In this document: piece after piece, positions 12,482 through 30,800 of the stretch
How the letters are laid out: the number at the start of each line of letters is the position of its first letter
How positions within the stretch are numbered: the stretch's first letter is position 1
Assembly (NCBI RefSeq): GCF_000001735.4
Contig: NC_003071.7
Location: forward strand, 6,317,151-6,381,150
Length of the DNA stretch: 64,000 bases
Direction: 5' to 3'
Origin: Arabidopsis thaliana
Lineage: Eukaryota; Streptophyta; Magnoliopsida; Brassicales; Brassicaceae
Notes under the pieces: generated by a model
Databases searched by the model: none
Told to the model about the DNA's origin: nothing
What the model saw: the letters and a program-made list of their open reading frames with translations, nothing else
Position numbers and translations under genes: made by a program

Positions 12482-12490
12482 TAGTATTAA
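12482..12490 (+). repeat. 9-bp target-site duplication, left copy
   Basis: TAGTATTAA occurs here and again at 27802-27810. The two copies immediately flank the large Mutator-like element. A 9-bp duplication is the size produced by MULEs. Confidence 0.75.
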
Positions 12491-12619
12491 AAGAAATTTT
12501 CACAAAAGTGGACGAAAAAAGATTTGTACTCACCGTTTGTCAAAGTGAGAACTGGTTTTTACGTTTTGTCTTTTCATTCAATTTCGGACAAAATTACCCT
12601 GGAAAAACTTAATAATGGC

Positions 12620-12955
12620 ACAAACCAAACCGTGCAGCAGTTCGTATCGGTTAAGTTGACGGCGTAAACCAAACCCTACAGCAGTTTGTTTCGGTTTAGT
12701 TGATGCGGTTCAGTTTTGAAAAAGACAAAAAAAAAAAACTGAAACGAAGAAACCGAGAAAACGAAAAAGAGAATAACGGAGAGATTTGAGAGAGAATCAA
12801 AAAGCGAAACGAAATTCAGTATCCATTGCTTCAAAATTCGACATAACTTCGAATTGTTGGGTAGTTGAATTGAGCCACTGAACTCCCACATCCGGTGAAG
12901 TGAAAGTTACTGTTTTTCCCGGCGAAGCCAAGAGAAAGTTACTGTTTTTTCCGGC
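12620..12955 (+). repeat. Subterminal direct repeats in the ULP-gene leader
   Basis: Two direct-repeat pairs lie here. ACCAAACC(G/C)T(G/A)CAGCAGTT followed by TCGGTT occurs at about 12622-12655 and 12666-12700. GAAAGTTACTGTTTTT followed by CCGGCGAA occurs at about 12902-12928 and 12932-12959. A related word set (GTTTAG, CGGTTCAG) occurs near the other end of the element on the minus strand, so these are probably terminal recognition or promoter sequences. Confidence 0.5.
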
Positions 12956-12991
12956 GAAATTTGAACCTCCGGCGAGATAGCATCTTTAGCT

Positions 12992-15900
12992 ATGGCTGGG
13001 AATAAAGCTAACGACGAAGTCCCGAGGAAGCAGCATGGTCCAGGGAAGGAGAAGCGGGTATTAAGAGTTTTCCCGCGGAGAAAACGCTCTGCGACAAAGG
13101 CAACGGAGGAACTGGGTTAGAATCTCTAATTTACCGTTTGTTGTCTTTGGGTGTATCAGAATTGTAAAGCTTGTTTGATTAAAGGGTTAGAATTTGTCGG
13201 AATTTAGCATATCTTTAGGATGAAAAATTGAGAAGTAGAATTGGAAATCTCTGTTTCCGCCAAAAATATGATTTTGAGTTATAATCTGGAAAATGTCTGT
13301 GTACGTACACTACTTCTGTTTGCTCAACAGTATATGACTTTTAATTGCAGGTAGTCCAAGTGTTGCTCCGACTGAAGATCTTACAGTTGAAGATTTACCA
13401 CCAAGACTCTTTGCTCTAGACCGGTACCCTTCCGAGACGAAGATGAACGCGTACTCTAAACCGGAGTACATTTCTGACATAGCAAAAGTACTAAAGGGGA
13501 AACCAGAGATGCAGTTTCTTCTCGATTCTTCATTTGGGAAACTTTTTAAAATACCCAAAAACAAGGCATCTTTCAATGCTAAGCTTGTCCTTGGACTAAT
13601 ATGCCGTCAGTTTGTGACAAAGAAGGTGAATGAGATGTGGATTGTATTCGGCGGTCATCCAATCAGATTTGGATTAAGAGAATTTAGTATCTTAACTAGG
13701 CTGGAATGTGGGAAGTATCCCAAGAAGAAAGACGTTGATGATGTTATCAGTGTGAAACCTGAGTGTCAGAGTGTTTGGAAGACTCTGTTTGATGAGAGGT
13801 TTGGGGAGACGGTTCCAACAATTGCTGATTTGGTGAGCTGGCTGCAGGAGGAGGAAAGCATGGAGGGGTGGAAGCAACTGGCACTATCTCTTATTATTTT
13901 GGTTGACGGTGTGGTAGCGGCTCACAGTAACCCCAACAGGCCTACTTCGAAGACTGTCGAGATGACTAAGAACCTGGAGTTTTTCTGCAAATACCCATGG
14001 GGAAGGGTGTCCTTTACCCGTACTTTGGGGAGGATAGCAAATTTCCAAACTCCTTACGATGCTCACAAACTAATAAGGGGTATACTTGTAGGGTCTTATG
14101 CACTCCATGGCTTCCCATTAGCTCTCCAGCTTTTAGCTTTCGAAACAATCCCATCAATTGCTAAGCTAGGACCTGATGATGTACCTAACAGGACATTTAC
14201 TGAGAGGTCTATCCATCGTCTTGCCTCTCTGCGAGCAATCCGGACATCTCGCATTTTGGAGTGTGAGGCTGCTGATGAGGTGTGTTAAATTGTGTATGTA
14301 CGTACATAATAAGTAAATGTACATTATCTATGGTTAACATACTTATTTGTGTAGGTTGAGGTCAACTATATTGTGAAACCAGCTGATAATGTTTGTCCTC
14401 CATCTCTTTCATGGGATGATGAAGTTGATGATCCAAGGGTTGATTACATTGAGGCACTGTTGATAGATGGGCACCAGTGGCAGGAGGATGAATGGGTTGG
14501 AGGCTATGCTAGAGTACCAAAGCAGTCGCGCCCACCACAACTAGAAGAGACACGTAAGTATAAGTATAAATGTTTTTACAAATTTTTTTGGTATTGCACC
14601 CAGAAGAAAACCAATTAATAGCAGCAACTGGTCTATTGTAGATCTTAAGAGGAAACGAAATGCACCGGGCCCGAGCCCTAAAGAACCTGCTATGAAAAAA
14701 CAGAAATCTGAAATGGACTGTGATAAAGAAGGGACTGCTGAGGATTGTTTTGGAGAGCCTGTGCCTGAGAGGTTTATTGTTGAAATGAGGAGGTCTTTCA
14801 AGGAGCTGGAAGACCAAATGTATCAAATGCATGAAGATATGAAAGACTTTGTCCGTGACCAGATACGTGCTGCCCTTGATCCAAAAGGCAAAAGGCCAGA
14901 ACAAACCATACCTTCCCATGATTCGCGGGAACCACCTACTTCTATGGATAAGGCACCGGTTACTGCGAAGAAGCCATCGAGAAGGATGTCTACAAAAGGA
15001 AGCACTGGAACGAGAAAGTCTTCAAGGCTGACTCGTGTTTCTCATGATGTGGACACTCCTGCACTTTTTGTTGGCTGTAATTCCAAAGAGGAAGATTTGG
15101 ATGTCCCTGGAGTACATACCACTGCTTTCGGCGGAAGAAGAAAACCTTCAAAGCTGAAGAAAAATGTTTCTTTTGCTGTTGACACTACTGAGGAACCTGA
15201 TTCCAATAAGGAAGATATGCAAGGATTCATTGATGAACAGGTAAGTCATGTACGTACATTGCTAAATATTTTATAATCCATATGTATAACTGTACTGTCT
15301 GCTTCGGTACAGGATGGCGCTAATAATGAAAGTGATTTTACTGCAAATGATGGATTGAATTCTTCTGCCGCTGAAGAAGAGATATTAGACACTGGATTTT
15401 TAATAGTTCCTTATGCTGGATCCACACAATCCCATCTGGTATGTCGTCTACTAATACTCTTAACAATCTGTTTAAATGGTGTACGTACATATTCGCTTAA
15501 GAAGTTAGTTAAACTATGTTTCAGGATAGAGGAAATGTTGTTGTTGGTAAGACTGTCTTCTTAGGTTCAATGTCTGGGACTGTCTTTGTAACACAGGAAG
15601 AGAGGCCTGTGGAAGAAGCTACTGTTGACACCCAGATGGAAGAAGTTCCATCTAATGTGTCTGCAAGAGTTTCAGAGGTAGATCTTCTGGTAATCGTTAT
15701 ATACAGATTTCCATGACTATATGCATATATATTACATTAATTTCTTCACTTATCTAACGCTTAACTCTATGGTAGCCTATTTTTCAGGATAATGGACCAA
15801 AGGATGTTGCTGAACCTGGCTTAGTTGGTACCCATACAGGGGCCGATGAAATAGCTGATGCTGACATAGAGATGGTAGACAATCCATCAGGTTTACCTTA

Positions 15901-17883
15901 AACATCTGCACAGGTATGTGTTAGTCACTTCTTCTTTTTTCCATATGTGTACGCCCATAAGACTTTGCAAATTATTTTTGTTTCATGAAGAAGCAAGAGA
16001 TGCCAGTGCATCGACTGAAGCTAATGGCAGCGAGTCAGAAGAAACTTATGAGCCTTCTGATGGAGACACAGCTCACGTACCTGACACAAGTGTACGTACA
16101 TTTTTGTCACTATGTTCTGTGTACATATATATTGTTTCATACATTACTAAAAAGTTTCTTTCCGATGCTAAATTCTACAGGTTGAGGCGGCAGGAGAATC
16201 GAAATTAGTGACAGTGATGGAAGTTGAAATACCTGAGAAGACCCACAGTGATGTCACCATTTCAAGTAGTTAACAATGTAAGCTAACTCTTGCAACAAAT
16301 AAAATGTACTATTTACTGTTCAAATGTATAAAATTTATATTATGCAGGTCATACGGGAGTTGGATACCAAAGCCGTTGGTGATTTGGCTGCAGCCACTGA
16401 TTTGGAGGTAACAATTTGTGTGTTTCAATTCCTATTTTCGGAATAGCATACATAGGATTATATGTGTACATTATATATACTTGTGTACGTTAACTTGCAC
16501 AGGTAGTCATGGAAGAGCCGTGTATTGTCGAGGGGTCTGTAGAAACTGAGGATCCTAACCCAGGGTCAGATGAAGCAGACAAGACCGATATTCCTAAAAA
16601 TAATGTATGTACCTATTTTAAACATATAAAAACGTATGAAACTGTTGTTGACAATCATATTTGTTAACAGGATGAATCAGACAATGCTGCTGCTGTCGAA
16701 GCAGAAGAAGAAAAAAAATCGTCACCAAAGGTCCCAAAGAAAGTGAAGAAGCAACTTGTCTATGAACAGGATGATGCCCATCCTCATGGTTTTAAGGCAA
16801 AAACAGTATTGGTGCCCGATGTACCAGCTCAACAGATAGAGGTTGTTATCAGGGCTGGAAATGTCTCATACAACCCCCTGGACATGCTTGACCCTTCAAA
16901 AGTAGAGGAATTCAGCAATATCATTAAAGGACCCTCTGTGTAAGTACATTATAGTAAAATGGATTATTTAATATCTCAATCATCATTTTTCCAAGTCTTA
17001 AGGTTGTTATCAAATATTTTTCTGGATTTTACAGGATTCACACTCTTTTCGGATTTCGAAAAGTGCCCAACGACTTTTTTGCGAACCTTCTAACACCTGG
17101 TGAATGGGTCGAAAGTACGGTACGCTGCATTTATATACGTACATTCCTTGTTATAAATTGTACATAGATGATTAAATTTTTCGTGGAAGTGTACGTACAC
17201 TGATATATTTTTTGAACATTTCAGCATTTAGAAATGATGGCAATGTTGATGTGGCACAAGAACGGGGAACAGATGATAGCAAACAGATATATTGTATTGG
17301 ACATGATGCTGACGCATCTTCTTACCAAGCGGGTGGGCGACTTCAAGAAGTGTATTAATAAGAACGGGTTCAAATGGGGTAAATTATTGTCCGACATTGC
17401 TAATGGAGTTCACATAAACCGTGAACCCAATATGAAGTGGATGAAGGATGTCGATGTTGTGTATGCTCCGATGAACTGGAAGAGTGAACATTGGGTTGCT
17501 TTGGGAATCAACCTTAATGAACGGCTAATAACTGTGTATGACGCTTTAATATCGCACACGCGGGAGTCGGCTGTGAAGGCGAGAATGACTCCTATTTGCG
17601 AAATGATGCCGTACTTAGACAGAGCGATGTGCCAGGATGTATTGATTTCTCCGTACTCAGTTGAACCTTTTGAGTATGTGCGTTGTCCTACCGTTGCTCA
17701 AAACCCAACTATAAGAGATTGCGGGCCATACACGATGAAGTTCCTGGAGTTGCTTGCCTTTGGACACCCTTTTCGGATCTGACAACCATTCGAGAAGCAG
17801 ATATGGTCTTCTACCGTCAGAAATACTCCGTTGACATCTACGAGCACGGCAAGCGGGAGGCCGATACTGTGCACTTGGTTTAA
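12992..17883 (+). pseudogene. DUF1985 - ULP1-type cysteine protease gene of the VANDAL element
   Basis: The exons I can join are 12992-13115, 13351-14279, 14355-14553, 14642-15240, 15313-15438, 15525-15677, 15788-15890, 15991-16091, 16181-~16270, 16348-16407, 16503-16604, 16671-16939, 17035-17119 and 17225-end. The N-terminal half is the DUF1985 domain (FGGHPIRFGLREFSILTRL). The middle is acidic, Ser/Thr-rich and basic in patches. The C-terminus is a C48 (Ulp1/SENP-like) protease with His in EHWV (17489), Asp in VYDAL (17540) and Cys in DCGPY (17720), so the triad is present. Such proteins are presumed deSUMOylating or deubiquitinating enzymes. There are two defects. Exon 9 runs into TAA at 16271 with no in-frame donor to exon 10 (unless exon 9 is skipped). 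A 1-nt loss at ~17767 ends the frame at 17782, 33 codons early. Matches the KI-ULP transposon class. Confidence 0.8.
13300..13311. promoter_or_regulatory. First copy of the GTACGTAC element-specific motif (intron 1)
   Basis: TGTACGTACACT is the first of a long series. Further clear copies in ULP-gene introns lie at 14298, 15250, 15481, 16092 (fused to a splice donor), 16484, 17137 and 17192. They also occur in spacers at 18044, 20799, 21016, 21215, 22246, 22360, 22388, 24002 and 24066. The core GTACGTAC is self-complementary. See the finding on the motif. Confidence 0.7.
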
Positions 17884-18241
17884 TCGTCCAAGAACAATAT
17901 TCTGGTTCTTTGCAACCAATTATTATGAACAAACCTGTCTTATATATCAACTACATTTAATTTGGAGATTGTCAGAAGTTAATTTATTGTCCTCTATCAT
18001 ATTGTCGTACACATCGTTCACTTATAATTACATAATGTAAATGTGTACGTACATATCTATATGTCTCGTACACTGCATATTAACTTTATAACATAACTCA
18101 AGTGATAAATTGATTTGACAGCCAACGCTTACCAACACAAGTATGACATTCATTTCAACCGTAATTGCCCCAACCAAATTCACAGTAGTGGTTATTAAAG
18201 TGAAGAAATTACTGACGATCTCTGACTATCTCATTTCAAAC

Positions 18242-18925
18242 ATGGTTAACCCGACTCTTCCCAACGATTTACTCTCAAAGATAGCTAAGAACCTGGCTGA
18301 CCAATGCTGGTCCACTGGTACGATCCGGCACTCGTGGAAGAGACATTGTCTACCGTCCGGATGTCCTCAAAGATGCCAATATTCTCACCTTGTGTGACTC
18401 GCCCGATGACTTCCAAGCTGGAGGGGGCCACAATCCCTCCGGATCCGCTGATGAAGGCCGACATCGAACATTTTCTTACGGTGTTTTGTAGCTAATAATC
18501 CCACGGCCGTGTATTACGAAGGTATTCGTGTTCTAACGCATGAACGAAACATCAATGGAGCCATCAGGCTCTTACAGCGTCATGCTCCAGTACGAGCAAA
18601 TGCAACACTTGCATGCGCCATTGTATTCATATGTGCTGGGTATGATTATATGGGCGGCTTGTTTCTACAGCTCTTCACCCGCAACCATTATCCATTGGAC
18701 TCGGTTGCCACTCGAGTTTTGGGTGATGAGTTCATCGAGGAAATAAAGAAGTTTGACCCTCCATACAGCAATACATATGGTCCTACGTTCTCTTATCCTA
18801 CCAGCCATGGAATTAGTATGCCTCCTTGCGCCTTATATTGTTACATGGTATCAGGAGCTTTCCAAAACGTTTGCAACCGCTGTTACCTCTGGTCGTGTGC
18901 CAGGCGTGTTAGTCAAATGCTATAG
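18242..18925 (+). pseudogene. F-box-associated (At1g67623-like) gene copy 1, frameshifted
   Basis: This is a degenerate paralogue of the gene at 19916-20608. It starts MVNPTLPNDLLSKIAKNLADQCW and resumes with DIVYRPDVLKDANIL. It then continues NPTAVYYEGIRVLTHE...NGAIRLLQ and ends in the cysteine-rich tail YCYMVSGAFQNVCNRCYLW. Relative to the intact copy it has an 11-base net deletion near 18320 and a 1-base deletion near 18477, each shifting the frame, so no full protein can be made. It lies 360 bp after the ULP gene in the same orientation. Confidence 0.75.
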
Positions 18926-19254
18926 TTATTCCATTCTACTTTATATGTTTGTTTATGTTATCCGCTATGTCATGTTTCAAATTATGATAAGGCTTCTACT
19001 ATGTTGTTTATGTTTATGTTGAAATTATATTATTGCTTAAGAAATTTGCAAGGTGTGTTATGTTTCTCAAGTTGAATATTTTTCAGCCAAATTCGCATAT
19101 GATATTTAGACACTGCAGTAAATGTAAATTTGGATATTAAAATCTAAGCGTCCACAACTCCGTACACGTGCATCTACCAAATAATACTTAGAGGTTTTTT
19201 CTTTGTCTCGGAAAACTAGATATGGACGTTCACTAGCATGAGATATCAACTCTA

Positions 19255-19328
19255 ACGTACACTAAAAAATAACACATGCAAACATATGAGGTCTTTGGTT
19301 TGTCTCATAAATGGTGATATTTATGAAT
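19255..19328. promoter_or_regulatory. Spacer with isolated CGTACAC motifs
   Basis: Single CGTACAC/CGTACACG words (19163, 19255) precede the tandem array and mark the start of the motif-rich spacer between F-box-like copies 1 and 2. Confidence 0.5.
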
Positions 19329-19704
19329 GGACGTACACTAATAGTACACTACAGCGTACACTGTTTGTTGGGCAAATGTAGAAATGTAAATGTGGACGTA
19401 CACTAAAACGTACACTACAACGTACACTGTTTGTTGGGCAAATGTAGAAATGTAAATGTGGACGTACACTGAAACGTACACTACAACGTACACTGTTTGT
19501 TGAGTAAATGTAGAAATGTAAATGTGGACGTACACTGAAACCGTCAGTAAAACGTACACTACAACGTACACTGTTTGTTGGGCAAATGTAGAAATGTAAA
19601 TGTGGACGTACACTGAAACGTACACTACAACGTACACTGTTTGTTGAGTAAATGTAGAAATGTAAATGTGGACGTACACTGAAACCGTCAGTAAAACGTA
19701 CACG
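19329..19704 (+). repeat. Tandem array of 65-78 bp units packed with CGTACAC
   Basis: Units begin (GGACGTACACT) at 19329, 19394, 19460, 19526, 19604 and 19670. Each carries up to three CGTACACT words followed by GTTTGTTG, AAATGTAGAAATGTAAAT. From 19460 the units alternate: one form has GAGTAAATG and the next starts with an extra ACCGTCAGTAAA, giving a 144-bp dimer period. The long minus-strand ORF (19338-19790) is a translation artefact of the repeat. The array sits about 200 bp upstream of the intact F-box-like gene. Confidence 0.9.
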
Positions 19705-19915
19705 TCTAGTTTTAAGCTGTTATTAAAAAGAGGTTGCTCATAACAACAATAACAAATTATATATGGAATACTATTACTTTGATTTGACAATATGAATACA
19801 CATCATCACTTAATACCTTTGCAATAAATACAACCATAACTTACCCAACCATATCTTCAATGATGCTTATTTAAGTGTTCGAATTTTATTTTGTCGAAAC
19901 ACCTTACTCCTAAAT

Positions 19916-20608
19916 ATGACAAACCCAAATATTCCTGACGATTTGCTTGCGAAGATAGCCAAGAAAATGGCTGAGAAATGTTGGTGGTACCTCGGACCTA
20001 TGTTGAAATCCGGTCCTCGTGGACGAGACATTGTCTACCGTCCGGATGTCCTCAAAGATGCAAACATTTTCAGCATGTGCGACGATCCCGATGACTTCTA
20101 CGCGGCAGGCCACGATCCAAATGACATCAACTCCGAAGGTCGCTATAGACCCTTCTTCAAACGGTGCTTACAAGCTGGTAACCCCACGGCTATTTACCAT
20201 GAAGGACTGCGTCTCGTTACACATGAGTCTGACATCCAGGGAGCTATCCTACACTTAGAGCGAATCGCCCCAAGGAACGCCGCTGCAACCCTTGCATGCG
20301 CAATTCTTTACATATGTGCTGGTAATGCTCACATGGGTGGTGTCTACCTTCGGCTCTTCGGAAGCAACCATTATGCTTTGGAATCGGAGGAGGCACGTGA
20401 CATTTGTGAGGAGGTGCTAGAAGATATAAAGAAATATGGTAATACTTTAAAATACACATACGCTAACAGTTTTTCGTACCCGGAATGTGGTGACGTAAGC
20501 ACTCCTGAATGCGCGGATGTGTGTTACATTAGATCGAGACTCTTCAATAATCTTTGCAACCAATGTTACATCTGGTTGTGTGCTAAACGAATTAGCCAGA
20601 TCCTGTAG
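19916..20608 (+). CDS. F-box-associated family protein (At1g67623/At2g35280-like), intact copy
   Basis: A single-exon ORF of 230 aa. The N-terminus IPDDLLAKIAKKMAEKCWW is a short, divergent F-box-like segment. The centre carries the family signature FFKRCLQAGNPTAIYHEGLR and a repeat-like helix region (GAILHLERIAPRNAAATLACAILYICAG). The C-terminus is cysteine-rich: CADVCYIRSRLFNNLCNQCY. This pattern (F-box start, GNP.A.Y..G segment, C-x3-C...C-x2-C tail) is that of the expanded Arabidopsis At1g67623-like F-box family, presumed substrate receptors of SCF E3 ligases. Here the F-box is degenerate, so SKP1 binding is uncertain. Two related but broken genes lie on either side within the same transposon. 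The start ATG has AAAT before it; no intron is needed. Confidence 0.75.
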   Translation: MTNPNIPDDLLAKIAKKMAEKCWWYLGPMLKSGPRGRDIVYRPDVLKDANIFSMCDDPDDFYAAGHDPNDINSEGRYRPFFKRCLQAGNPTAIYHEGLRLVTHESDIQGAILHLERIAPRNAAATLACAILYICAGNAHMGGVYLRLFGSNHYALESEEARDICEEVLEDIKKYGNTLKYTYANSFSYPECGDVSTPECADVCYIRSRLFNNLCNQCYIWLCAKRISQIL

Positions 20609-21364
20609 AGCTCACATTCGCCACGATCCTGTCATATTTATAAGTTTTCCATGCAACAATATGTGAGCTTTTTACGTTGATTATCAGTAATGGAAGTTTG
20701 TTTTTAATAAAATTACCACTTTGTAATTGATTCAAACATACTAGCTCAAAGTACTCTAATATGAGACATCATTAAAATAATAAAATAATAAATATCTACG
20801 TACACGATAAATGATAATGTACACGTGGCATAGTTTAATTCCAACTATAAAGATTACATAGTGAACGACGATATAGTTTGTAAATGAAGACGAAAGGAAA
20901 TTTGATTTGACGTCGTATAACCCATATATAGAAGATTTCGCTCCATATTAATTACTTGCTGTCAAATACACTCTAGAAGTGACCTCCATCACACTCTCAT
21001 TAATATCTCTATTAGACGTACACGGTTACCGAGCAATGTACTCAATTGATTTGGCAGATAAAATAAGTAAGTTAATGTTTATTTGAAAAGATTGTTAGTA
21101 AATGCGTTGACCCCTAATATAGCACTATACATGAAGCCATATTGTTCCCCTTATATGCCATACAAACAGACGTCAACTCAACCTTCTGCCAGAAAATGTA
21201 ATGAGTATTTTGTAGACGTACACGGCGCGATTATGAGAGGTACACAGTAATTTGTTTAAATTAAAAGTTACTAATATGATGCACTAAATATACATCCACG
21301 TCACCCACCCACTTACATTGATGGTTATTCTTCTCTTTAAAACTCATGACAAACACACTTAGTT

Positions 21365-22039
21365 GAATACACTAATCCGTCTAAACCTCCTCGTTTGAAA
21401 AACAATGCCTTTCCTACCTCCGCTAACCCTCCAACCGAGTTGTACCTAGGAATCCAATTGCCAAACCCCATAAGCATACTTGTCAACTACCTCCCCGTCA
21501 GCCAGACTCCCATAGAGACGCTAAGGAACTTAGTCTACAGTTGTGACATCAACACCCTTGCAATCGATGAATTCATGACGTGGCCGTCGTTACTCCAACC
21601 TGGGTCTCCCTTCCGGCCATACTTCGAGCTGCTTGTAGAACGTGGATCCATCCCGGCGGTTTACCTTGAAGGTGTTCGCCAAGCGAGCAACTTCGTGACA
21701 GTAGCTCAGGGCCTTTCAGTCATGACAACGGTCGCTTTATCTGATCCCTTTGCTTGCTTCGCAACCGGTTTGTTCCTTACGTGTACCGGTAATCACTTGG
21801 ATTTCCTCCCTATCAGCGAAAAGTTCTGGGAAATGACACCCACCCTTGAAGCTGGCCACGCGGTTGCAGAGATGGTGATGTATCACATCAACCAGCTTCA
21901 CACTGAAAATGCTCGCCGCTGGAAAAGGTCTTGGAGGTTTGTCCACCCGCCGAGTTGCGTAGGGCAATGCACGTTCCATCATGGCTGCAGGGTTTGTTTT
22001 TTCTACTGGTACGCCAGGGAGATTGCTATATTCTACTAG
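21365..22039 (+). pseudogene. F-box-associated family gene copy 3, divergent, start unclear
   Basis: The frame is open from 21365 to the stop at 22037-22039, but its upstream part has no ATG. The first in-frame ATG is 21575, which would leave 154 aa. Recognisable pieces are FRPYFELLVERGSIPAVYLE-GVRQ (matching the GNP.AIYHEG segment of the intact copy) and a cysteine/histidine tail PPSCVGQCTFHHGCRVCF. A normal gene would begin with an F-box-like segment about where LPNPISILVNYLPV lies. Either the start codon was lost or translation uses a short form. Two CGTACACGG motifs (21016, 21215) lie in its upstream region. Confidence 0.55.
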
Positions 22040-22598
22040 GCTCTACTCTCGAGTCTTTTGGTATGACGGATGCACACATATTTTGCAACACATGTGTATG
22101 CTTCGTTTAAAAAAATATGTTTTTTGAATCGTTCCAGTTTATTTATCTTATCTTATGAATTTCCCTTTATATAAACTGCCTGTACTTTTTTATGTTTCTG
22201 ACTTTTGAATGAATTACCACTTTAAGTATTACTAGATGTCTTTGTGTACGTACACTATATAGTACATTAAACTTGGTTTATCGTACATTGGGAAATTGTG
22301 TACACAACATAAGTATAAATCTAACAGTTTTTGATGTTGAAGGCACCAAAACTAATATACGTACACGATAGCGTACACCAGAAACTATACGTACATTGCG
22401 AGAGGATTTGAACAATAAAACAAGGCACATACATAAAACAACAAATTAGATTAAAATTAAAACGGAAACAAGAAACAACAACGACTGAAATGTAGTTTGG
22501 TTCTTATGGAAACAACAACAACAACTGGGAAAGAAAACATAATTGAAATGTAGTCTTATATTATATTAAAACGGGGAATAATGGTTCATTCCCTCTAG

Positions 22599-23547
22599 CT
22601 AAAAAACCACCATCGAGATATCCGCAACTTCTGCTCTGTCCGGATTGGCAACCACCTTTGAAATAGCACCATGGCTCTCAAGCTTCGGGTTAGACAGTTC
22701 GGCTAGACGCCAAAAGCTGAGTGCGACAACAAAATTTCCCTTACCCAAACTCTGAAAGTAACCATCCAAGTACTCCGCCTGTTGATTGCGGGCTTCGCAC
22801 TCCAAGACTTCATTGCTACGTTAGAAATAAGGACAGTTAGCGTTTAGAGTGACATTGTAAATAAAACAAATGAAAAGAACACTTACTATCTATCTTTTAA
22901 CTTGAAACTCAGTTTGAGACCGTAATAGTCTGTAGTCAATGCGCCAACATCAACCAACGCTCCAATGACATCTAGATGATGGAGAAACATAGATAATAAA
23001 CAAACATTTTCAAAAATGTAATAAATGAAGCATCGGAGTTATTCCTCCTCACCGACTAAAACGTTCTTGTAAGCAGATTTATCCAAAATGTAGTCGAAGG
23101 GAGTGAAATCGAAATCTGGAACTGGTGGTGATCTCGGTGGGGCATGAACGACGATGGTCCGATCCATAAACAGTATGCCGTATTTATGCTTTGTTGCTCT
23201 GACTAAGTCAGTTGACTTACGGACCAAGAAAGAGGTGATCGTCTTCCACTCATTTTCAACGAATCGGTCTTCGTAAAACGGAGCAAGGCGACGATCAACG
23301 GTGGCCTCAATACGGTTATTCTTTACATACAGAACATGATAGTAGAGAGTTTAATATATAAGTTAAGCGAATGAACGAGAAAAACACATAATGATTTAAC
23401 GGAAATTACCTCGTAATCTGCCAGGATAAGGCCGAGTTCGAAGACGTTGGGCGATATAACCTTCTTGAAGACTCTCACGACAAAGACATAAATTCGCCAC
23501 CCAGTTATCAGAGGACACAATTCTGAGACCGTATGAAACACCTCCAT
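22599..23547 (-). CDS. RPA70-like OB-fold (DUF223) protein, intact, inside the VANDAL element
   Basis: There are four exons: 23547-23410, 23320-23053, 22971-22887 and 22815-22599. All have GT/AG borders and matched phases, giving 235 aa with no lesion. The N-terminal ~110 residues follow the plant DUF223/RPA1-N OB-fold pattern: MEVFHTVSELCPLITGWRIYV, then ELGLILADYE, NRIEATV, APFYEDRFVENEWKTI and the FDYIL region. A second, weaker OB-like part (VIGALVDVGALT...LKLSFKLKD, then FVVALSFWRL) follows. Plant DUF223 proteins bind single-stranded nucleic acid, and many belong to replication protein A large-subunit families or Helitron cargo. In a Mutator-like element this gene is unexpected. Its role is unknown; binding of element DNA is possible but not shown. 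Confidence 0.75.
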
Positions 23548-24110
23548 CTCACGGATAGCAAGAACAAGCAAATCGAAAGACTAAATTTCTTCTTGTGAAT
23601 GAAATAACTGCCGGCACAAGAAATGGGTTTAGAATGAGGATTGTGGATAAAATTAAGGAAGGGAGGAGACTTAAATAGAGGAAATCTGGAACGGCTACAG
23701 TTATTAATGCGGTTACAACTACACTTGATTCAAATTTTTTGGTAATAGTCTGGTAACCGTCATATAGGGTAATCATTACGTTGATTTGACAATAAACAGC
23801 AACAGTTACGTCCTTTCCATTAAATACCAACACAACCACAATATACCCAACCATGTCTCCAACTCCATTCATTTAAGAGGGGGAATAAGTTAGAATTTCA
23901 AAAAACTTATTTCAAATTACTCAAAATATTGAGCAACCCCCTCTGTGTACCCTTATTACATGAACTTTACCACGTACACAGACAAAAACGTTCATAGTTA
24001 TACGAACGTAGAGTTTAAACGTACGTACACAACGTACATAGTTACAGGTGGATTATATATAAACTTACGTACACCGAGAAAACACAGAAGCGTACACTAT
24101 ATTGGCCGGC

Positions 24111-27069
24111 TCAGAAACTTGTCACCGGAACTAGATTGGATTTTTTGCACGTCTTCTTGTTATGACCTGCTTGTCGACAGCGTGAGCACTGATTTGGTAA
24201 AAGTCTTTTCTGTCTCTTTTTCTGAAGTGACAAAGACAGGAAGTTACAAATCTCCGCATGGTAATACTTCAAAATACAAGTATATGAATGAACGATGTTA
24301 GTACATACCCGGTTTTCACCTCTAGATGGGATCCTTTTGGACAGTGGTCTTCCTGGTGGTCGTCTACTGTATGGAGGAATGAGTATCAAATCCACTATAT
24401 GTTGTGGGATGACAACATCTTTCGGATCCGGGATAGGTAGAATTGGTTCTTGGAAAGAATCAGAAAACGTTTGAAGGCCATACCACCATCCGACACAAGA
24501 CTTCGGATCAATTCCATGCTCGATTGCAGCTGCTAGAGCGTGTTCACATGGGATTCTTAGCTTGGTGTACCTAAGACACGTACACGTACAATGGTCCAGA
24601 ACGACATGAAAATGCTCCCCGGATTTACTTGTCACTTGATAGCTCCACGGTCCAGACATCTTCACAGCGTATTTACCTGACGCAGGCAACTCTTGTAGAA
24701 ATCTCTCATCAACCTCAGGTGTCACAGAAGATTTGCACCTAGCAACTTTCTTCCTCCTCGATGCGAACCATCGCATTAGGACATCCCGAATGAACTCGAT
24801 CATGTAAACAATCGGATAAGTTTTTGCTTTTGTTAACACATGATTCATGGACTCAGAGTTGTTGCTAGACATGATATTGTAGCGTTCTCCTCTACAGTGA
24901 GCTCTTGTCCAATGCTCAAATCCTATGTCCTCTAGGTATTTTGCGCATTTACCACTCTTTTCCCTTAACAGTTCAAAATATTTCTCGAAATCCCTGACCC
25001 TATAAGCTTTGGCAGCGCTGAAAAATAAAGCAGACACACCAAACTTACCATAGTAGGTGGAGAGGTTTCGCTCAAGGTGAACAGCACATGCTCCATGATG
25101 CGCTCTCGGGTAAACAACACTTAGGCCTTTGTATAAAGATGAATGTCTGTCCGAGACAATCATTAAATCGTCACTGTCTGGAACAATCTCAGCTAACTTT
25201 TCAAAAAACCATGCCCAAGAAGCATCGGTCTCACCATCAACAACACCAAAAGCTATTGGGAATATTTGGAAGTTCCCATCTTGGGCACATGCAATAAGAA
25301 GACATCCTTTGTAAGGTCCGACTAGCTGCGTTCCATCTACCACAACTACCTTCCTCATATATATCAGACCTTTGATAGAAGCGCCAAGAGAGACAAAGAC
25401 ATACTTGAAGCGCTGCTTACCATCATCTTCTGTATAGTGTAGGTGTGTTATTGTACCCGGATTAGCTAATTGGAGAAGATACAGATAGGTCGGCAAAAAC
25501 CTGTAATTTGCTATCTCATCCCCCCCGTACATTTTCCACTGCAACCTCTTTTGCTCTCCAAGCGGTAGAATATGAAATACGCACATTCAGATCATTTAGG
25601 AGCAGCTGTGGTAAGTCGACAGCTCGCGGCCCACCCTGCGTAGAACTGTATCTGCTCCTCACAACTTCTCCGAGGAGCTTATAATTAGCATGTTTATTGT
25701 AGTTCTTCCGAGAGTCGATGTTACACGTATGTGTCGTAGCATACGAAGTGATTTTGAAACTTTCTGAATCCTTCACGACGCGAGCAGTCAATTGCCATGG
25801 ACAAGTCTCATCAACGCACACCATCTTCAATGTTTTAGGACATGACTTAGGTTGCTTGAAGCAAAAGCATTGCTTTATCGCTTGAAGAGACATTGTTTGT
25901 TGCAGGACTTTTCTATTCTTAAAAACACTTCCAACAAACAAAGTTTCGCCTGTGGTGCTGATTTCAACCTGTGTCTCATCAGCTCAAAAATTGAGTAAGT
26001 CATCGAACACAGGAGCAGCATCGTTACCGAGATTCGCCAACTCGCCACCATGTAACTTAGAAAATTCATTATACACTTGGTAAGCCTCAGCTGCGGTAAC
26101 TACCCAATTATCATTTTGTGTCCCCGTTGAGGAAGCTCCAATACCGTCGATCACTTCATCCCCGGTGACTTCGTCTATACAAATAAGATTGGAATCCCTT
26201 TGCCCTTTGCAGCGTGTACCGTAACCCAATGGAGAAATTGTTTCTTCGCCAGGTACACTAAGACCAGTGTACGTACACGTTTCCAAGAGACGACTGAATT
26301 CCCCTGTATCTCCGCCAGGTACACTAACACCCGTGTACGTACACGTTTCCAATAAACGACTGAATTCCCCTGGATGTTGAGCAGTCTGTTGAGTGAGACT
26401 GACGTCTTCCTCAAGATTTCCTTGTACATATTCTTCTACTATTACATCGTTCCACTTGTTCTAACCGTATTCTTCGCCAATACCTTCACTACCGTCTGTA
26501 GTAGGATACAGGGTACTTCCCCCAATAGATCCATCCACACCAAGATAATCATCACACCCATCATCATCTTCGTTGCCCTCCTCCAATTCATCCTCTTCTG
26601 TTGTATCGTCTTCAACATCGGCTTGCTCCTCTGCATCCTCATTATTTTCATCAACATTTGTAGCACTATCAAACACACGGTCACTTTCAGAAACTTCACC
26701 ATGAGACCTAGAGACAGTATTCCCGAACGCATTCACTGTATTATTGAAAGAGACGAACAAGTTGAGAGAAAGATACCCACCACAAACCAAAAAAAACGTC
26801 TCGAGACCCATCTGACTGTCAATGTATACAGGAGGGCGTTTAGTATCTATCAGCACTGACATTTCTCCCGGCATCCAGTAGCTAATTATGGGATTGATCT
26901 CGGTGGACTTCAAACTGAAAGCCTCTCGGAGTGTACGGACAAAGTCTGTGTACGTCATGGTTTCCTGAACGCGTACACAACAACCAAAGATGCCTTCCTC
27001 AGGTTCAAATTTCCATTCTCCTTCTTTGCATTTCCACTCACCGACCATAGTAAATACGGGAATATCCAT
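24111..27069 (-). pseudogene. VANDAL MuDR-type transposase (vanA-like), broken
   Basis: Start codon at 27069. In order: an N-terminal region of ~110 aa (YTDFVRTLREAF), an acidic linker, then the Mutator DNA-binding zinc domain around 25940-25700 (FKNRKVLQQTM, CVDETCPWQLTA, THTC). The MULE DDE catalytic domain follows: D in VVVDGTQL (~25334), D in IVSDRHSS (~25150) and E in NNSESMN. Next come a SWIM finger (CTCTCLRYTK...CEHAL, ~24590) and, after an 87-nt intron (24308-24222), a CCHC knuckle CSRCRQAGHNKKTC. Lesions: TAG at 26461-26463, TGA at 25984-25986, and a G7 run at 25520-25526 that shifts the frame by one relative to the DDE half. All catalytic residues survive, so decay looks recent. The enzyme would cut and paste the element in the nucleus. 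Confidence 0.85.
26263..26379 (-). repeat. In-frame tandem repeat in the transposase linker containing the GTACGTAC motif
   Basis: Two near-identical ~63-bp units encode GEFSRLLETCTYTG(V/L)SVPG. Each contains TGTACGTACAC, the element's spacer motif, here as codons for Cys-Thr-Tyr-Thr. The unit boundaries are about 26379-26317 and 26316-26254. Confidence 0.75.
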
Positions 27070-27801
27070 AACCCACCTGCATCATAAATTCAGGAGACAC
27101 ACATTAAATGCAACTGAAAAATACTATACATATAAAAAACGAATGGAATGTCGATACTACACATTTATAAACCTAAATACCAATTATCATTTGACTATTT
27201 TAAACAAACAAATATAGATTTTGCAAATATTCTGATAAAAAAATGGAGTTCGAACACAATCAAGATCCTAATATGACATAACAAAAAACTTCTTAAAAGA
27301 ACTTCATTACTTACACGAGCAATGCTCCAAACTTGGTACAAAAACAAGATCAACACTTCTTCAGCAGCAATGTACGTTCTCAATAATTCTTTGTTCATGG
27401 GTTCATCTTCTTTATCTCAACAAATTTTTTATTAATTATTATCAATAATTTTTTTTATATTATTTGATGTAATGATGATTTTGCATTAATTGTGACAATA
27501 GTCACATCTAAACTTTTTGGGGGCATTAAATGTTGATGTCACTTCGGAATAATGAAAATAATCTCACTTGTAACGGAACCGAATCGCGTCAACGTGAAAC
27601 AAAAAATCTTCAACTGAACCGGAACAGTGTACGTAACTAAACCTGCTAAACTAAACCGTACATTTCAACAGTTACTAAGAGAGAAGCGCAAGGGCAGAAG
27701 CGTCATTTTGCAGGCGAAAAGGCAAATGGTGAAAACCACATTTGACTTTGACAATCCATGAAAATAAAACATGGTCAACGGGTGTGGCCTGTAATTTACC
27801 C
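27070..27801 (-). other. Transposase leader and right terminal region of the VANDAL element
   Basis: A likely 5'-UTR intron ends with CAG just before the transposase ATG. A 67-codon ORF (27398-27195) lies upstream but does not join in frame. Motif copies GTGTACGTAA (27631) and CCGTACAT (27656) are the last before the right border. The final ~100 bp pair with the left end in inverted orientation. Confidence 0.5.
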
Positions 27802-27810
27802 TAGTATTAA
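27802..27810 (+). repeat. 9-bp target-site duplication, right copy
   Basis: TAGTATTAA, identical to 12482-12490. It is directly preceded by the element end GTAATTTACCC. Confidence 0.75.
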
Positions 27811-30800
27811 ACTACCCTCACAATATTGTAGTTCACAAAATGCTTCCCAAATAATAGTATAGATCAAAAGAAAATACAAATGAGTTATCCAAACCATATT
27901 ATGTTAAAACGTAAAAATCCCTTATATATTAGTTGAAAGTTTTTTTGTCTCTCTTTGTTGTAAGTGAATTTGCTATTATTGCCTATAAAAACACAACACA
28001 TAGACGTAGACAAAAGGCTGCTTTAGTTAGTTGTACCATGCATGCTCAATCACCCCGGAGATAGTTTCCAAGACGTAGAAAAATTAAACCAACAGATTGA
28101 CCCGACTCGAAAACAAACGCAAGACACGTATTCTATAAAGACATCCACTGATCCACCATACGAAGCGAAAGGTCGGTTTGGTGGGTCAAAGATCTTCCAT
28201 TCAAATAATCCACAATCCAACACAAAAAAAAAAAAACTCCAATTTCGACAAGCAAAAAGAAGGAATCACCACAAGATCCACTGTGGGAAGCGTTTATCTT
28301 AATGAACCCGCATATGGGTTTAAATGAGAGACCAAATCTTTCATATTTGTAACGCCCTAAGTCCCTAACTGGTTACAACAACCTCTTAGAGAATGCCAGT
28401 CTCATGTTTAGCGGGAAATATTTTTTACCTTTACTTGGATCCCTCATGGTCCACACATGCCGATGCAGATGGAGAGCTCTTACTTCCCCACCATCAAAAT
28501 AATTCTTCTCTTCATAACCCTTCTACATAAGAGGCCACATAAAGCCCAAAATATAAAGAGTAGAGAAGCCCATCTAAGCTCATGTCATTAGGTTTTGTAG
28601 TTAGAGTTTCTCATATATATATGTGGTGTATGACATTGATGAATGTAGCCTAGAGAGTTGCCATTGAGCAACTCTTCTTTTCTTCATTGTATGAAATCAA
28701 ATCTAAATCTATTTTGATCTTCAAGACAATCTAAAGCTTCCTTTCTCTCCTTTACATTTCATTAAAGCTCATTAGAGCTATTGCATTTCAATCTTTATAT
28801 ATCTCTTTCAATAAGCTCAATCAGCATCAATCTATTCATGTATTAGAAAAGTCTTCACTACAAAGTATCTGATTAAATTGTAGACCGCTTAATGTACCAT
28901 CGTATCACTAAGTAGACTTTTTGGCTAGTCACTGATAAGAGGATCTTCAAAACGTAGCAACAATGACAAGAAAAAAGTGTTGTGATGTAAAGCTACTTGG
29001 ATCCAATTACGGCAAGTTTGGTATTTGTAAAATAAAGCGTGGAAAGGTGCACCAAAGCTTTATGGACCAAGAGGCCCAATACCTTTGTTTATTCCTCCAC
29101 AAAATGAGGCCCAATAACTATGTTTCATAGAAATTTTTCATGGGTTAGGCCTGGAAAGAGGTTGTTGATAGTTTAGATGATCTCCACCTTCACATATTTA
29201 GTGTTGATATTTGTACAAATGAAAGAAAATGTGACTTCGGCTTCAAGTGGATCCGCTGGTAAGATCCAAAGGATGACTTCGAGGTGGGTTTTCATGGATA
29301 TGAGCTCTTTGATGGGTCAAGCGGGTTGATTGATTTACTACTGGGCTGAGCTGTATGTTAACGGGCTGAACATCTCCAAAGTGGCCAATCATTTTTCAAG
29401 CATAAGAATAAAACACAATAGTTTTCTTTAAATACAAGATAATTACATCACAACCAAGAGCAGTACAAATAGAAAGCATAATTTACTACATACAAACATT
29501 AAAACACATATGTTATAGATGATACGTAGCCATTGTAAAAGCAGTTAATATACTTCATAACATATAAACCACAACATATTTTTACAGATTTCTACTCAAT
29601 CAATATGTCTTATACGAATCAGATCTAAAATAAAGAAGAGAAAGAAGCAATGAAGATAATTAAAAAACATAAGTATTTGATTTTTTTTTCTTTTATACGA
29701 TAATGTAAATATTTGATTACCAAAAAGATAGATGATTGAAATATGATATACTATATCATTAATTTGAAATTATAGTAGTTTTTTTTTATTTTAGTTTTAT
29801 TTGTAATCTTTTCTTTCTCTTCATTGAGAAAAGACTAACATAGTTTAGGTCATGATTATTCTGAGTTTGTAAAACTAATTTGTGGTTTTTTTTTTTTTTA
29901 ACTCATATTTGTTCAATCAATTTTTTTTTGTCAACGTAGAGTCCTTAAAAATTGAAAAACCAAACTAGTTTTTGGAGGTTTTATTTTTAATTTTATTTTC
30001 TGGTTACAGATTGATGGTGATAATAACGAAATTATTGATTGTCTCCTAAAATGAACATAAGTAGAGAAGAAGAATCAACAACACATACACCACAAATACA
30101 AATTTAATCTAATAAAACTTAGCTAGCTGAGTTTTGAGCTGCATCACTACAAGCCTACACCTAAATTTGTAGAAGTAAGAAAAATGATTGAACAGATGAT
30201 GATCATATAAATTAGAACAATTCTTAAGCTAAAAAATCAATGAAGAACAGCTTAGATAATTTTTCAATAATGCACAAACTACGCAAACGTTAACAATAAA
30301 TGATGTGATTCAAAAATTACTAAAGAGTATAAGATTTTAAGCAAACACATTCAAATAAGTTCTAATTTAATTTAGAAATGATGGAACACAATACCCCAAA
30401 TTCCACCAAAAAATGAAGATATAAAAAGGATTCGAACGGATCATGAATGATGAAAATGAAAAGAGCTCAACCAAGAGATCGATGATGCAATAAATCATAT
30501 TTGTTTTTGTACTTTTAACTAACAATTACCTTTTTTATGGTGCAGAGGGTGTATCGTGGACACCCATCATTTTTTTTAGATCCAACGGTTGACGTATGGT
30601 TTTGATCTGTCGACATACGATATTGATCAGTATCAAGAGACAATTGCGGTTATTAAAAACAGTTATGGAGTTGAAAAGGACTTAACGAATATGTCAAAGT
30701 TTTTTTGGATGTGACGTTGATCGTGTTGATCCCATAATGGTTCAAGCTTATGTGAACAAAGCTGGAAAGAATGATTTGGGAAAGCCATATCATTCAAATA

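Follow-up and report, generated by a model that had tools for sequence, protein, structure and literature searches.

A CGTACA word concentrated in one VANDAL lineage of Arabidopsis thaliana as a candidate address for its DUF1985-Ulp1 protein

A 64,000-nucleotide stretch of the Arabidopsis thaliana genome (C2:6317151-6381150; hereafter the window, with positions counted from its first letter) contains a VANDAL-type Mutator-like element (MULE; 12491..27801) in which the short word CGTACA, read on either strand, is densely repeated. The motif is real, strong and lineage-specific, being common to two families, whose transposases are 81% identical, and to their deleted relatives. We propose that it quite probably serves as the DNA address of this lineage's VANC-type anti-silencing protein, most likely the DUF1985-Ulp1 protein encoded by the element itself. 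For a VANDAL lineage in which the VANC gene probably includes a protease domain, this provides a clear and checkable candidate binding word.

Enrichment of the word and its restriction to a lineage

CGTACA and its complement TGTACG together occur 64 times within the element, against three times in the other 48.7 kb of the window (4515, 43172 and 52683), and GTACGTAC occurs 11 times inside the element and never outside it. First-order Markov sequences derived from the element (200 runs) hold a mean of 6.07 words and a maximum of 14. The Poisson P for 64 words is about 3e-42, and masking of a tandem array at 19328-19703 leaves 48 words with P of about 8e-27 under the same Markov expectation. For the reversed control word ACATGC the counts are six inside the element and 18 in its flanks. 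No other 6-mer of the window element is as enriched as CGTACA, whether the comparison is with the flanks or with the Markov model; in two copies of the sister family ACGTAC, which belongs to the same word, ranks first and CGTACA follows it. An A stands directly 5' of CGTACA at 52 of the 64 window sites and at 47 of the 49 sites of one sister copy. The core of the word is ACGTACA, which often stands in its fuller form, the palindrome TGTACGTACA. A preliminary description of this DNA, made from the sequence alone, had called the word dense in the element and nearly absent elsewhere; the counts bear out both, and the word positions which it listed are correct to within a few bases.

Within the element, the 6.25 kb scored as noncoding carry 8.6 words per kb and the 9.06 kb scored as coding carry 1.1; exon limits were in part drawn by eye, those of the Ulp1-encoding (ULP) gene from GT/AG dinucleotides and reading frame. 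Of 13 introns of this gene drawn in this way, eight hold the word, with words counted by hand. The first word of the element is a palindrome TGTACGTACA in intron 1 (13300..13309), and a second intronic example (14297..14306) lies 18 bp beyond the end of the DUF1985 exon, an offset that is the same in the sister family. Another (16091..16100) overlaps the splice donor of exon 8, a site inferred by eye; the earlier suggestion that selection for the word may shape splicing, for which this is the one overlap seen, finds no support in the analyses. The last word before the right end lies at 27657..27662 on the forward strand. The array at 19328..19703, with periods of 66 and 144 bp and 12-bp subunits, accounts for 16 of the 64 words, and its length differs among copies.

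The genome searched comprises 119.66 Mb in seven contigs. A transposase census, in which 99 of 446 candidates were scored and locus counts are consequently lower bounds, placed at least 15 loci at or above 92% identity, at least nine at 75-81%, one at 65% and one at 49%; the remaining loci fall mainly in the range 35-48%, apart from a few short fragments with higher values. We compared the window element with 10 of its 14 other close copies, two of nine sister copies, 6 kb of a relative with 43% identity and 5 kb of VANDAL21. Word counts refer to the sequences retrieved, in which some flank is included and some elements are incomplete. The ten close copies hold 26, 27, 36, 39, 52, 52, 53, 61, 64 and 65 words, and the two sister copies (transposase 81% identical) 49 and 52. 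There is no word in the 6 kb of the 43% relative, and neither CGTACA nor TGTACG occurs in the 5 kb of VANDAL21, where the published VANC21 site YAGTATTAY, used as a positive control, is found 10 times. The VANDAL21 piece also carries a DUF1985 frame and, by eye, the letters of PDB chain 9lnj. As in the known VANC systems, a short motif is enriched in the noncoding DNA of its own family and missing from 11 kb of other families.

The pattern GTGTACGTACAC has 142 sites genome-wide, against 35 for its reversed counterpart. Among the first 50 of the 142 in coordinate order, placed by hand, 48 belong to the lineage (26 in close copies, three in sister copies and 19 in deleted or rearranged relatives of either); the other two are C1:13240852 and C2:4891001. 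There are 55 places with close pairs of CGTACACT; when these are assigned by hand to the census loci, 50 fall in 13 close-family loci and five elsewhere.

Words frequently reside in tandem repeats that differ between copies, another feature of VANC targets. Between the first and second small genes of the element, the spacer contains 18, 15, 13, 10, 9 and 6 words in those six of the 11 copies that allow the measurement. The corresponding spacer of a sister copy contains an array built on another unit, of 114 bp and three words, instead of the 66/144 bp of the window element. Of 11 intervals between coding blocks, the same 10 contain the word in both the window element (2, 2, 0, 8, 3, 4, 18, 3, 6, 5 and 3 words) and one sister copy (2, 2, 0, 8, 3, 2, 16, 2, 1, 4 and 1).

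The candidate reader of the word and rival explanations

The KIU/VANC candidate of the element is a DUF1985-Ulp1 gene (12992..17881, forward strand; 14 exons drawn by eye) with matches to DUF1985 (4e-33) and Peptidase_C48 (2.8e-60). In both the window element and the sister family the two domains lie on the same strand and in the same order, and they are predicted to form a single gene. The DUF1985 exon matches the solved VANC21 (PDB 9lnj) with E=2.7e-11; in alignments to the window DUF1985 protein the sister protein is 59% and the VANDAL21 protein 28% identical. In the open frame the H-D-C residues, which we take to be the Ulp1 catalytic triad, look to be kept by eye.

The DUF1985-Ulp1 protein would bind the many word copies in introns and spacers, and binding would remove DNA methylation and silencing from the element, the sister family and their internally deleted relatives, with little effect elsewhere; we infer both the binding and the demethylation from these sequence relationships. 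In favor of such an address are the enrichment of the word, its near-restriction to the lineage, the homology to VANC21 and the turnover of the array, as well as the VANDAL21 piece, which has its own motif and none of this word. As the word is shared within the lineage, cross-activation is predicted inside it and little outside. The preliminary description had likened the word to the VANC21 motif, as an address for an anti-silencing factor, the transposase or both: lineage restriction, DUF1985 homology, array variation and the available part of a 2026 review favor the former, whereas a role with the transposase finds no support in the analyses. It is conceivable, though we consider it doubtful, that the word tethers an active SUMO-type protease to the element, such that DUF1985 would read the address and Ulp1 would strip SUMO from silencing proteins there, with the transposase coding region also acting as address DNA by way of a word-bearing 22-codon repeat.

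Other readers, or none, have to be weighed against this proposal. ACGTACA fits the consensus NNGTACR of SBP proteins, in which N is often C and R often A (PMC3520712), raising the possibility that the element's genes are driven by a host factor recruited through the word, be it an SBP-box (SPL) protein or another GTAC/ACGT-binding plant transcription factor, with bZIP and NAC sites also considered. However, the base before CGTACA is C at only 4 of the 64 window sites and 2 of the 49 sister sites, being mostly A; the words lie in introns and between genes rather than upstream alone; and the word is missing from the pieces of two other relatives. We regard such recruitment as improbable. We are similarly disinclined to see the words as a functionless by-product of tandem or local duplication. 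That a quarter of them (16 of 64) form one array of variable length, and that conservation of the word does not clearly exceed that of neighbouring bases, would suit this explanation, but 48 words persist without the array, the same word is carried by another unit in the sister array, and the interval counts given above are similar between the families (Spearman 0.63, P=0.04). The two families that share the word also have 81% identical transposases, as might befit a transposase binding site. Yet MULE transposases act at element ends, whereas the outermost words lie about 810 bp (left) and 140 bp (right) from the ends and most are internal, which makes this the reading to which we give least credence; the preliminary description was mistaken in placing the first and last words just inside the duplications.

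Several observations weigh against the address proposal itself. All coding words of the window element, 10 of the 64 (24579, 24585, 25526, 26268, 26272, 26334, 26338, 26932, 26949 and 26972), fall in the transposase coding region 24111-27069; the word at 24091 is outside this frame, which ends at 24111. The earlier characterization of the word as noncoding is right for most copies and wrong for these ten. When the gene spans of a sister copy are counted in the untrimmed stretch there are 11 further words, of which six lie in the transposase, one in a small gene and four in the DUF223 gene (introns included); the transposase and small-gene words are again in coding spans. The longer form CGTACAC is less dominant in the sister copy (20 of 49 words) than in the window element (49 of 64). 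Two short introns, one after DUF1985 and one before the Ulp1 exon, align across the families even with the word masked, with 44/65 and 62/90 positions identical outside the word and 10/10 and 13/16 within it, so that shared word positions were perhaps inherited and not selected. Common descent does explain part of them. The notion that the noncoding DNA of the two families is wholly unalignable was rejected on the same grounds, blastn recovering mainly coding blocks and yet these two introns being alignable.

Conservation within the family is also weak. In a majority-column test, variation is seen in 4 of 148 non-CpG word columns and in 319 of the 4627 columns of other noncoding DNA (P=0.045); the word columns are nevertheless not clearly better kept than their 15-bp flanks (37/700, P=0.21) or than other TACA/TGTA/GTAC bases (13/278, P=0.44), and CpG columns show no difference (11/58 in the word, 34/223 otherwise). 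The result is only suggestive, and selection is not claimed. An alternative test, which scored the word wherever any one copy had it (P 2e-22), was rejected: words that have arisen in only one copy inflate its control, and the majority-column test is the fairer of the two. The 10.5-bp phase of the words, computed with no significance test, falls in the window element from 0.35 with the array to 0.06 without it, and is 0.16 in a sister copy; four derivative loci (13-34 distances each) give 0.01, 0.10, 0.34 and 0.20.

Relationship to known VANC systems

The principle that VANC proteins recognise motifs in their own noncoding DNA is already published, and this very case has probably been published too; the idea is less new than the preliminary description implied. 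According to the available portions of Hosaka 2017, VANC21 binds YAGTATTAY in noncoding parts, its motifs have spread through tandem repeats, its target arrays expand and shrink, and VANC6 targets carry other words. The present lineage is like VANC21 and VANDAL21 (Hiun) in combining a DUF1985 protein with a short motif in the family's noncoding DNA and with variable arrays. The word itself is different: YAGTATTAY is absent from the window, from seven of the ten close copies and from both sister copies, occurring once each in the other three (A7, A8 and A3). Furthermore, DUF1985 and DUF287, and not Ulp1, are named for VANC21-group proteins in the available text, whereas Ulp1 is found here.

VANC6 with VANDAL6-8 (motifs AGTTGTCC/AGTTGTAC) is a system of the same type, whose AC-type motif shares TGTAC with the present word. 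Its targets differ in the word, AGTTGTMC being found 0-2 times per copy here. A search for the VANC6 motif pair (46 places) was rejected as a positive control, as none fell in C4:5944406-5949806, which we take to be VANDAL6.

The closest parallel is with VANC1 and KIU. The targets of VANC1 are listed as VANDAL1, 2, 22, 1N1 and 2N1 (2023 paper), and Ulp1-carrying VANC genes, termed KIU, are described as recognising motifs in the noncoding DNA of other VANDALs that carry KIU (2026 review, citing Sasaki 2022). These systems, too, have both DUF1985 and Ulp1 and comprise two autonomous families with deleted relatives. Judging from this architecture and from interpolation of transposable element numbers, the lineage described here is probably that of the VANC1/KIU VANDALs. 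One deleted relative sits near C1:20.68 Mb, which is presumably also the place of AT1TE68310, as interpolated from its number. AT1TE68310 is a VANDAL2N1 according to the literature. CGTACA was not found in connection with VANDAL in the literature searched, which says little as the key paper, Sasaki 2022, lies outside the searched set. The available portions of Hosaka 2017 and of the 2023 VANC paper contain no CGTAC, and the locus names of the copies were not found in the literature.

Boundaries and remaining genes of the element

The element is delimited by exact 9-bp target-site duplications TAGTATTAA (12482..12490 and 27802..27810), and its assignment draws on these flanks together with MULE transposase, DUF1985 and Ulp1 domains. 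The duplication can also be read as TAGTATTAA(A) (12482-12491 and 27802-27811), giving 9-10 bp as in VANDALs, which are MULEs without long terminal inverted repeats; a MULE transposase is present (PF10551, 1.8e-17). Each of the ten fetched close relatives has an alignment reaching exactly to 12491 or 27801, and the best match between the two ends of the element is a single 53-bp imperfect alignment. TAGTATTAA(A) is similar to the VANC21 motif YAGTATTAY at all but its last base, a likeness that is probably due to chance.

Downstream of the DUF1985-Ulp1 gene are three related small genes on the forward strand. The first (18143..18925) comprises two open frames here, which are 53-55% identical to sister-family frames; the second (19916..20608) has a sub-threshold match to TPR_27 (26.6 bits for a cut-off of 27); and the third (21395..22039) matches no Pfam family above cut-off. 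They are followed on the reverse strand by a spliced DUF223 gene with limits set by eye (22600..23571; DUF223 2.4e-14 for 23323-23571), which has relatives in the sister family, and by the coding region of the MULE/SWIM transposase, VANA (24111..27069), recognised from open frames and the PF10551 match. The transposase frame is split in the window copy, whereas four other copies have a stop-free open frame of 994 codons. Two 66-bp (22-codon) repeats on its strand (26239..26372), each with GTGTACGTACAC, hold four of the ten coding words. One TGTACGTACA palindrome lies within the transposase span of a sister copy. Gene order, including the three small genes and the DUF223 gene, is identical in the sister family, which indicates that these genes are shared old parts of the lineage.

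Two minor observations concern other loci. In the 43% relative (L040, C1:16951001-16957000) AACCATC occurs 11 times in 6 kb, against 1.0-1.4 expected, making it a candidate address word of that family. At three derivative loci (L003, L014 and C1:16842910-16842963) GTGTACGTACAC palindromes lie exactly 21 bp apart, or about two helical turns.

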